Shown here: positions 6,020 through 9,127 of the stretch, piece by piece
Layout: the number at the start of each line of letters is the position of its first letter
Position numbering within the stretch: position 1 is the first letter of the stretch
Notes under the pieces: generated by a model
Databases searched by the model: none
The model's input: only the letters and a program-made list of their open reading frames with translations
Told to the model about the DNA's origin: nothing
From: an uncultured Ruminococcus sp.
Lineage (GTDB): Bacteria > Bacillota > Clostridia > Oscillospirales > Ruminococcaceae
Length of the DNA stretch: 64,000 nucleotides
Assembly (NCBI GenBank): GCA_902786975.1
Contig: CADAES010000009.1
Location: 59,449 to 123,448, forward strand
Direction: 5' to 3'
Translations under genes and position numbers: made by a program

Positions 6020-6048
6020 TTGACAAATCGGTTTGTTTGTAGTATAAT
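6020..6048 (+). promoter_or_regulatory. Consensus SigA promoter of the tRNA operon
   Basis: Perfect TTGACA (6020-6025), a 17-nt spacer and perfect TATAAT (6043-6048), 22 bp before the first tRNA. Confidence 0.95.
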
Positions 6049-6070: not shown

Positions 6071-6146
6071 GGGGGTATAGCTCAGCTGGGAGAGCATCTG
6101 CCTTACAAGCAGAGGGTCACAGGTTCGATCCCTGTTGTCCCCACCA
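6071..6146 (+). tRNA. tRNA-Val (UAC)
   Basis: All four arms fold. The anticodon loop CTTACAA gives UAC, the T loop is TTCGATC, and CCA is encoded (6144-6146). It is the first gene of the five-tRNA transcript. Confidence 0.96.
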
Positions 6147-6250
6147 TGACAGAGGGTGCAGAAGATCGCTCAGATCTCTGCACGGCTCTGGATATCTGAT
6201 TCTTCAAATGTCGAAGCTCGGCTCGGCAGATTGAAGATATTTTTTTCAAT
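6147..6250 (+). other. Two-hairpin spacer between tRNA-Val and tRNA-Asp
   Basis: This spacer is about 100 nt, while the other gaps in the operon are 3-26 nt. It contains a strong hairpin (GTGCAGAAGATC pairing with GATCTCTGCAC around 6157-6184, one bulge) and a second, looser one (TCTTCAA with TTGAAGA) followed by TATTTTTTT. The second may be a weak terminator or an RNase processing site. Its function is not shown. Confidence 0.45.
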
Positions 6251-6324
6251 GGCCGGGTAGTTCAGCTGGTTAGAACGCTAGCCTGTCACGCTAGAGGTCG
6301 TGGGTTCGAGCCCCATTCCGGTCG
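6251..6324 (+). tRNA. tRNA-Asp (GUC)
   Basis: The cloverleaf folds with anticodon loop CTGTCAC (GUC) and T loop TTCGAGC. The discriminator is G at 6324 and CCA is not encoded. Confidence 0.95.
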
Positions 6325-6345
6325 TAGATCTCCTATGAGAGATTT

Positions 6346-6418
6346 GCCTCTGTAGCTCAGTAGGTAGAGCAGGGGACTGAAAATCCCCGTGTCGATGGTT
6401 CGATTCCGTCCGGAGGCA
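6346..6418 (+). tRNA. tRNA-Phe (GAA)
   Basis: The anticodon arm GGGGA-CTGAAAA-TCCCC gives GAA. The acceptor pairs GCCTCTG with CGGAGGC (one G-U), the discriminator is A, and CCA is not encoded. Confidence 0.96.
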
Positions 6419-6444
6419 TCGGGTAATACCCAACAATTCAATAT

Positions 6445-6517
6445 GCGGCTTTAGCTCATCTGGTAGAGCGCCACCTTGCCAAGGTGGAGGTAGCGAGTTC
6501 GAGCCTCGTAAGCCGCT
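6445..6517 (+). tRNA. tRNA-Gly (GCC)
   Basis: The anticodon arm CCACC-TTGCCAA-GGTGG gives GCC. The acceptor GCGGCTT/AAGCCGC is perfect and the T loop TTCGAGC is canonical. CCA is not encoded. Confidence 0.96.
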
Positions 6518-6520
6518 TAT

Positions 6521-6594
6521 GCGGGCTTAGTTCAACGTTAGAATACCTTTCTTCCTGAAAGGAGAAGTGAGTTTAATTCTTGCAACCCGCTCCA
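6521..6594 (+). tRNA. Non-canonical tRNA-Gly (UCC) with altered D and T loops
   Basis: A 74-nt cloverleaf with anticodon loop CTTCCTG (UCC) and an encoded CCA (6592-6594). Several normally fixed positions differ. The D loop is AACGTTA, so G19 is T. The T loop is TTTAATT, so C56 is T, and the G19-C56 elbow pair is lost on both sides. The T stem GTGAG/CTTGC has two G-U pairs, the acceptor has a C-A mismatch at pair 6-67, and position 37 is a pyrimidine. From memory, these traits resemble the non-proteogenic tRNA-Gly that feed FemX-type wall synthesis in staphylococci. It may instead be a decaying gene. Confidence 0.75.
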
Positions 6595-6600
6595 TAAGCA

Positions 6601-6633
6601 AAAGAGATGCTGTTTTCACAGCATCTCTTTTTT
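6601..6633 (+). terminator. Intrinsic terminator of the tRNA operon
   Basis: A 13-bp perfect stem (6601-6613 with 6618-6630), a TTTC-type loop and a terminal T run, directly after the last tRNA. Confidence 0.93.
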
Positions 6634-8105: not shown

Positions 8106-8447
8106 TTATTCCCAGTTATTCCACACCTCGGGGCGGTATCCGACGGTCGCAAGCCTGCCGTTTCGCACGACGGGGGCGGCGATAATTTTTGGAAAATCAA
8201 GCAGCTTATTGAACTTTTCGTCCGTGCTGCCGAGATATTTGAAAAGTGTGGCGGCGTCGCCCTTGGCTTTGGGGTCGAGCAGCTTGTCGATGTCCTTTAC
8301 CGCTTGCAGAACGCTTGTAAGCTCGCCCTTGCTCATTCCCTTAGAGTCGAGGTCGATGTACTGGAAGCTTATGCGGCGCTCCTTGAACCAGCGCTGTGCT
8401 TTCTTTGTGTCAAACGATGACGAGCGCCCGAATATCTGAATGTTCAT
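8106..8447 (-). CDS. ArsC/Spx-family thioredoxin-fold protein lacking the active-site Cys
   Basis: A 113-residue protein with ArsC/Spx-family length and fold markers: an M-N-I-Q-I-F-G start, F-D-T-K-K-A-x-R-W-F helix, Y-I-D-L strand, G-x-x-x-K-F-N-x-L motif and A-A-P-V-V-R-N-G-R near the C-terminus. The redox Cys expected just before F-D-T-K-K is Ser, and the protein contains no Cys at all. Reductase activity is therefore unlikely, and a Spx-like binding role is possible. Its ATG overlaps the dtd stop (ATGA at 8447-8444), so it is translationally coupled to dtd. Confidence 0.8.
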
Positions 8448-8905
8448 ACAAGTATCTCTCCGTTTTTACATTCCAGCAGTATCGTGAACGGTCCCTCGTT
8501 GGTAAGCTCGACCTTCATCGAAGCGCCGAACACGCCGTTTGCGACCCTGCCGTTTATCCTTTCGGCACATTTTTCGGAAAATATCAAATACAGGCTGTTC
8601 GCCTCGTCGGGCTTGCCTGCGTAGATGAACGAGGGGCGGTTGCCGTGGTGACAGTCCGCAAGCAGGGTGAACTGCGAAACGATGAGCATATCTCCGCCGA
8701 CGTCGTTTATGGAAAGGTTGGTCTTGCCGTTCTCGTCGGGGAAGATGCGGAGCTTGGAGATCTTGTCCGCAAGCTTCTCGCAGTCCGCCTCGGTATCGCC
8801 CTGTGCGACCCCGAGAAGTATCATAAAGCCGCAGCCTATCTCGCCCGTGATCTCTCCGTCAACGGTAACGCTTGCGTGCGATACACGCTGTATTACTGCT
8901 TTCAT
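8444..8905 (-). CDS. dtd: D-aminoacyl-tRNA deacylase
   Basis: A 153-residue cytoplasmic enzyme that hydrolyses D-aminoacyl-tRNA (and Gly-tRNA-Ala), preventing D-amino-acid misincorporation. The family signatures are present: M-K-A-V-I-Q-R-V start, VSQFTL with the active-site region (about 77-82), NRPSF, and N-E-G-P-F-T, where Phe replaces the usual Val of the GPVT cis-Pro motif. The ATG at 8905 fits the family N-terminus and has AAGGAGAAT upstream; the longer in-frame reading into the upstream hairpin region is not supported. It is co-transcribed with the ArsC-like gene. Confidence 0.95.
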
Positions 8906-8956
8906 AGTATTCTCCTTTATTTGATTGATATTTGGGGGAAACCCTTTTGGAAGAAG

Positions 8957-9127
8957 CAAAAACGGCTTTGCCGTTTTTGAGAGTAACCGCAGTGGCGGTT
9001 ACTCTGTTCCCCCCCCCGAGGATACCCGTTGGGTATCCTCGCAAGCGACCACAGGTCGCTTAACCCCATTTCCTAAACCTCTTAATATGTTTCGGACATA
9101 TGGAGCAAGCCCCATATATCCGAAACA
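8957..9127. repeat. Cluster of five consecutive stem-loops
   Basis: The gap upstream of dtd (about 335 bp without a convincing gene) contains five tight hairpins: 8957-8979 (10-bp stem, TTT loop), 8980-9005 (11-bp stem), 9018-9040 (10-bp stem, GTT loop), 9043-9061 (8-bp stem, ACA loop) and 9088-9127 (16 bp, one mismatch). A run of nine C (9009-9017) separates the second and third. The stems differ in sequence, so this is not one tandem repeat. An open frame across it shows no family features. No function is assigned. Confidence 0.8.

Follow-up and report, generated by a model that had tools for sequence, protein, structure and literature searches.

The window, i.e., the whole stretch of 64,000 nucleotides analysed here, contains a glycine tRNA gene which keeps its anticodon and an encoded CCA and has lost bases of the elbow between the D and T loops. 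The question is whether such a gene is decaying, serves the ribosome in some special way, or provides a tRNA for another purpose. We consider it probable, on sequence comparisons, that it specifies a functional glycine tRNA dedicated to non-ribosomal use, which would be charged by GlyRS, passed by EF-Tu and the ribosome, and used by a FemX-type transferase in a cell wall of the diaminopimelate type.

The gene and its cluster

A first-pass annotation had described a tRNA-Gly(UCC) with an encoded CCA, and the coordinates as well as the CCA are present in the sequence (Table 1). The gene is the last one of a cluster in the order Val-Asp-Phe-Gly(GCC)-Gly(UCC), where the normal tRNA-Gly(GCC) mentioned in the same annotation was also found. 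Its Rfam tRNA score was 41 bits, compared with 64–69 bits for the four neighbours; ARAGORN called these neighbours and made no call at 6521–6594. Promoter-like sites were scored by consensus match, with two in the region versus an average of 1.0 in shuffles. The standard terminator scan gave no report of the hairpin at 6599–6633.

Table 1. Positions of the odd tRNA gene and of neighbouring features in the window.
Feature	Position	Strand	Basis
Promoter-like site TTGACA-17-TATAAT, 12/12 consensus matches, upstream of the tRNA cluster	6020..6048	+	
tRNA-Val(UAC)	6071..6146	+	ARAGORN, Rfam
tRNA-Asp(GUC)	6250..6325	+	ARAGORN, Rfam
tRNA-Phe(GAA)	6345..6420	+	ARAGORN, Rfam
Canonical tRNA-Gly(GCC), without encoded CCA	6445..6517	+	ARAGORN, Rfam
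Odd tRNA-Gly(UCC), proposed to be non-proteogenic, CCA encoded	6521..6594	+	Sequence, Rfam, relatives
Anticodon loop CTTCCTG of the odd tRNA: C32, U34C35C36, U37, G38; C32-G38 pairing possible	6551..6557	+	Sequence, predicted fold
Terminator-like hairpin and T run, directly 3' of the odd tRNA	6599..6633	+	Simple hairpin finder without shuffle control

In standard numbering the odd tRNA has C6.A67, G10.U25, A14-A15, G18-U19-U20, the anticodon loop CUUCCUG and a variable loop of four bases with A48 as the last one, which we take to be a poor fit to the usual 15-48 pair. The T stem consists of G49-C65, U50.G64, G51.U63, A52-U62 and G53-C61; it carries the loop UUUAAUU, which contains U56 and A57, and the 3' end is formed by U73, followed by the encoded CCA. 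The acceptor C-A mismatch and the two G-U pairs of the T stem which had been pointed out previously can be read directly as C6.A67, U50.G64 and G51.U63, while Y37, G38, A57 and A48 had gone without mention. Identical sequences were found at loci L040, L041 and L043, and also at L161, L175 and L190.

Bacterial glycine identity resides in G1-C72, C2-G71, C35, C36 and U73, as described in a passage of PMC9976931. Charging of the odd tRNA by GlyRS would be expected, because all of these bases are kept.

The genome to which the window belongs (2.37 Mb in 56 contigs, 90% complete) yielded 38 tRNA matches, 37 of them over the cut-off. It had been suggested to look for a second, canonical tRNA-Gly(UCC) elsewhere in the genome, and one is present at C19:78341–78411, with G18-G19, TTCGATT and CTTCCAA; a tRNA-Gly(CCC) was found as well, besides the tRNA-Gly(GCC) adjoining the odd gene. 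CCA is encoded by the odd gene and not by the canonical tRNA-Gly(UCC) (L003:1501–1571). It is likewise encoded in all 12 distinct odd sequences from Ruminococcus, and in the canonical tRNA-Gly(UCC) of some relatives.

Two minor observations concern the same genome. A weak tRNA-like stretch (L036, G000:C24:22718–22767) scored 24.5 bits, which is under the Rfam cut-off. A D-aminoacyl-tRNA deacylase gene (PF02580, 197 bits) is located at 8444–8959 on the minus strand, 1.85 kb from the odd tRNA; this closeness is probably a coincidence.

Conservation, elbow and anticodon loop in Ruminococcus

Related genomes were searched for the altered tRNA, as had been proposed, with a model (R1) built from nine distinct copies. 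The odd gene turned up, at 82–100 bits and as a single copy each time, in 22 of the 29 Ruminococcus genomes and in 18 of the 20 good ones among them (completeness of 90% or more, contamination of 5% or less). The next-best matches within the genus reached 62–74 bits and were canonical wherever inspected. No match was obtained in seven genomes (G004, G006, G007, G010, G018, G019, G025). In G004 a contig ends just before the expected place; G010, G019 and G025 are 70–80% complete, and a Thr-Pro stretch was the only one inspected in G018. An intact odd tRNA was not found in G006 and G007, both of which are good genomes with FemX present. In G007 one cluster lies close to a contig end, and another has a Cys gene at the odd tRNA's place; in G006 (L252, G006:C58:14800–15900, after position 651) the first 18 bases of the odd tRNA are joined to the terminator, which could be due either to an assembly collapse or to a real deletion. 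A Phe tRNA near this remnant is truncated, too.

In the nine distinct odd sequences, which leave out the L176/L215 type, the cloverleaf is paired in 94.7% of cells and the T stem in 45/45 cells, four of its five pairs being altered on both sides. The covariation score of the T stem was 0.323, a value reached by 0 of 500 shuffles; since the nine sequences are related to each other, this count does not equal a probability. When the partners were slid by 1–3 columns, the score was at most 0.12. In the L176/L215 type (G028) the T arm is not paired as 5+7+5, and a bulge may be present. A terminator-like hairpin of varying sequence follows 17 of 18 copies of relatives, the 18th (L045) being masked, according to a simple finder without a shuffle control. 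Judged from these comparisons, the odd tRNA is under selection as an RNA.

A decaying tRNA pseudogene might be thought of in view of the low Rfam score, the lack of an ARAGORN call, the broken elbow and the 18 bases left in G006. This candidate was rejected because of the conservation in the genus (22/29) and the compensatory changes in the T stem, and the retention of CCA and of a terminator-like hairpin speaks against it as well; we regard it as scarcely credible. Together with the second, canonical tRNA-Gly(UCC) and the identity bases, the same observations bear out the earlier opinion that the changes are not the result of random decay.

The elbow was compared in 12 distinct Ruminococcus types. 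Position 19 is U or C in these, or G18-G19 is wholly gone: nine types, among them the window's own copy, have kept G18 and lost G19, and three (the R. bicirculans type) have lost both. U56 occurs in six of the 12. Going by these sequences, the change at G19 is fixed, C56 is often lost in addition, and the double loss is typical of part of the genus. Thus, the loss of both G19 and C56, as originally noticed, is correct for the window's copy and does not hold as a rule for the genus. C6.A67 was found in two of the 12 sequences (the own type and the L131 type), G51-C63 is lost in all of them, and A57 is present in 11, compared with G57 in all 17 canonical sequences; the canonical sets of this comparison were pulled by A37-A38 and are informative for other positions only.

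The anticodon loop C32-UUCC-Y37-G38, with Y37 in place of A37, was found in 22/22 odd copies, 18 of which were read without presupposing the loop and four by way of a regular expression demanding it. Canonical-type genes, likewise read without presupposing these bases, have A37-A38, in 25/25 loci of the family and in 8/9 loci of the genus, the ninth being without such a gene. Predicted folds of three odd tRNAs showed C32-G38 closed and a loop of five bases, versus the usual seven in the canonical UCC tRNA; the prediction should be taken with reserve, as no cloverleaf was obtained for the ordinary tRNA-Gly(GCC). Decoding is expected to suffer when 32 pairs with 38 and position 37 is a pyrimidine.

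These loops bear on the possibility that the odd tRNA still serves the translation of GGA and GGG codons, as an isoacceptor that is slow or used under stress. Its anticodon UCC, the CCA and the identity elements are intact, and one promoter-like site precedes the cluster, which otherwise consists of ordinary tRNAs. Such a role is nevertheless improbable, considering the consistent difference at positions 37 and 38, the canonical tRNA-Gly(UCC) in the genome and the description of staphylococcal counterparts as non-proteinogenic in parts of PMC4052509.

In a tRNA dedicated to non-ribosomal use, which is the reading preferred here, avoidance of EF-Tu and of decoding would follow from three changes, namely the T stem without G51-C63, the disrupted 19-56 elbow pair and an anticodon loop which is reduced to five bases by C32-G38 and has Y37. 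The T-stem pairs 49-65, 50-64 and 51-63 matter most for EF-Tu affinity, as stated in excerpts from PMC4499158 and PMC8219837. U73 may shield the free Gly-tRNA from D-aminoacyl-tRNA deacylase (DTD); a section of PMC6097841 describes that DTD can act on Gly-tRNA and that U73 protects.

Comparison with staphylococcal glycine tRNAs

One genome per species from 84,980 bacterial and archaeal species was scanned with a pattern (GCGG start, TANTTCAA, free D loop, AGAAY, CTTCCYG), and relatives outside this pattern would be missed by the scan. The 78 stretches obtained comprised 57 from Staphylococcaceae, which were titled Staphylococcus, Mammaliicoccus, Macrococcus or Macrococcoides, and 20 of the Ruminococcus type, of which 16 were titled Ruminococcus (R. 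albus and R. bicirculans among them) and four uncultured Clostridiales or Clostridia. The remaining one, from an Erysipelotrichaceae MAG, was a false match: the gene is truncated and has GG in its D loop. S. aureus was absent from the titles of the 78 matches. In the family outside the genus, 0/292 genomes had a match over 78.2 bits to the odd model, and 0/397 other genomes of the phylum had a match to R1 at E 3e-19, in both cases among 12–16 scored candidates per genome; a more divergent odd tRNA could escape these searches. The best 25 matches in the family outside the genus were all canonical. Four IMG/VR contigs (L197–L200) were found to carry staphylococcal-type odd tRNA-Gly genes, perhaps as host DNA beside prophages.

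Staphylococcal non-proteinogenic tRNA-Gly are reportedly treated in Giannouli 2009. Three tRNA-Gly of S. aureus have been described as non-proteinogenic; in these, GG18-19 has given way to other bases and the T-stem pairs are weak for EF-Tu (PMC4052509, PMC9976931, in excerpts), and according to a passage of the former paper they could supply wall synthesis. Leaving out L158, which is truncated, and an L193 copy that lacks the expected 3' end, we compared the 12 distinct Ruminococcus sequences by position with 99 distinct sequences of the staphylococcal type, two of which come from viral contigs. D-loop GG occurs in 0/12 and 0/99 of these, respectively, and its loss was not demanded by the pattern. 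A57 is common to both groups, with 96/99 on the staphylococcal side and the 11/12 given above. Also shared are the UCC anticodon, the loss of G19, an altered T stem, the encoded CCA and the anticodon loop CUUCC-Y-G, although Y37-G38 is present in the staphylococcal-type sequences by construction, being part of the search pattern. A FemX-type transferase is found in the genomes of both, in Ruminococcus by the FemAB profile and in staphylococci as described in part of PMC4052509.

Unlike the staphylococcal genes, the odd tRNA has its host in Clostridia and not in Bacilli, and there is one copy in each of the 22 Ruminococcus genomes, versus up to four per staphylococcal stretch. The window's T loop is UUUAAUU, compared with UGYAA in staphylococci. 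In S. aureus, A49-U65 and A51-U63 replace G49-U65 and G51-C63, whereas the window's copy has G49-C65 and G51.U63; its T stem (G49-C65, U50.G64, G51.U63) is outside the weak set described there, which argues against a wall role as in S. aureus. Within the genus A49-U65 was found in three of the 12 sequences and A51-U63 in three others, and both together never; the genes of the R. bicirculans type (3/12) share U54-G55-C56 and A51-U63 with staphylococci. The staphylococcal likeness suggested in the first-pass annotation was found, against the 99 distinct sequences, to hold for the D loop and A57; it did not extend to the window's own T-stem pairs, which differ from A49-U65 and A51-U63. We file the odd tRNA, as far as its sequence indicates, as a variant of the staphylococcal non-proteinogenic kind, which differs from strict members in the T-stem pairs and is mixed at G18-G19.

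In tRNA trees (three groups, no outgroup, 53–75 columns) the canonical genes were on one side of a branch. A constraint which grouped the odd genes of Ruminococcus with the canonical ones of the genus could not be rejected, with p-AU values of 0.106 and 0.159; the trees are compatible with transfer as well as with convergence.

A tentative proposal, in which our confidence is limited, is that in two distant lineages, Staphylococcaceae and Ruminococcus, the glycine tRNA set aside for wall synthesis has the same anticodon-loop lock (a closed C32-G38 pair and Y37), which either arose convergently or came with a transferred tRNA. The lock, and not the T stem alone, would then bar decoding and could perhaps serve to recognise tRNAs dedicated to the wall by their sequence alone; a glycine cross-bridge on diaminopimelate would be predicted for Ruminococcus.

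FemX and the cell wall

FemABX-type transferase genes had been suggested as possible partners of the odd tRNA, and a FemAB-family ORF was indeed found once per genome in 29/29 genomes of the genus; the 20 ORFs which were fetched are strongly alike. The protein from the window's genome scored 193.7 bits with the FemAB profile (cut-off 24) and is without profile positions 235–297, which presumably represent the helical arm. Its best PDB match was "Lipid II:glycine glycyltransferase" (6snr, 1.6e-42), followed by FemX entries, over residues 1–333; we assume that 6snr is from S. aureus and that the FemX entries are from Weissella. With the NCBI lysine N6-alanyltransferase model 138 bits were obtained, far under the cut-off of 500. 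The gene adjoins a VanY-type carboxypeptidase gene. It is on contig C8 and the odd tRNA on contig C9, i.e., they are not neighbours. This separation speaks against the proposed wall role, as do the good genomes G006 and G007, which have FemX and in which no intact odd tRNA was found, and the T arm of the L176/L215 type. MurE has the motif DNPR, which we take to indicate the diaminopimelate type. This motif and a FemX without profile positions 235–297 distinguish the present system from the staphylococcal one.

FemX of Weissella viridescens is a similarly short protein, and the alignment covers residues 1–333. Its preferred substrate is Ala-tRNA, for which G2-C71 is the identity element, according to a passage of PMC4052509; the odd tRNA has C2-G71.

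The single FemX-type transferase of the genus would draw on the Gly-tRNA pool and would attach glycine to a stem peptide with diaminopimelate in the peptidoglycan precursor. Charging, avoidance of EF-Tu and of the ribosome, use by FemX and glycine in the wall are all steps which we infer. Measured wall chemistry for these Ruminococcus species was not found in the literature, and, among the papers listed from the open-licence PMC literature, none dealt by its title or abstract start with a tRNA of this type or with Ruminococcus FemX. If the proposal is true, the division of labour among tRNAs which has so far been described for staphylococci would also exist in Ruminococcus of rumen and gut, with a different wall chemistry. 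A peptidoglycan feature would be predicted for a genus for which excerpts of a 2024 review of gut peptidoglycan give no type (PMC11382707). Other tRNAs no longer available for translation could be recognised by a simple signature in their sequence, and with the two systems as a natural pair one could ask if it is the avoidance of EF-Tu, that of the ribosome, or both, on which selection acts.

FemAB was also found in 124 of the 292 family genomes outside the genus, none of which had the odd tRNA at a match over 78.2 bits. FemAB and the odd tRNA are thus not tied to each other, because FemAB is common in family genomes where the odd tRNA was not seen; the latter would be a refinement of a FemAB system able to run without it. 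This distribution would also suit a tRNA which is dedicated and non-proteogenic and has as its client another user of Gly-tRNA (lipid glycylation, peptide or protein modification), instead of FemX. An MprF-like domain (PF09924) is present in 15/29 genomes of the genus, but was not found in the window's genome and 13 others of the 29, and several of the negative genomes carry the odd tRNA (G008, G009, G016, G021, G026). Searches for lanthipeptide dehydratase and CDPS had no match in the 29 genomes, but the controls were likewise without any match, so that these negatives carry no weight. Another client than FemX would appear to be rather unlikely.

A regulatory RNA, acting as T-box effector or decoy and not as amino acid donor, is very improbable in our judgement. 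The two-codon T-box which binds two tRNAs, presumably the glyS T-box of S. aureus, speaks for such a function; it is known from work cited in the reference list of PMC4052509. Against it, a decoy needs neither GlyRS identity nor CCA, both of which are present. In the genome 12 T-box matches were obtained, five of them over the cut-off, and no glycine gene was recognised behind them; the frames behind eight of the 12 resemble, by eye, genes of Ala, Trp, Leu, Cys, Phe and Ile metabolism, those behind four were left unassigned, and short Gly T-boxes could be missed by the search. With respect to the wall reading, it counts against the staphylococcal parallel that no Gly T-box was recognised among these 12 matches with frames judged by eye, unlike in staphylococci.

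A further parallel to the proposed tRNA for non-ribosomal use is the pseudo-tRNA tRNAOther of Bacillus cereus, which is a tRNA-like gene outside translation and whose deletion changes the wall, as described in part of PMC3399842.
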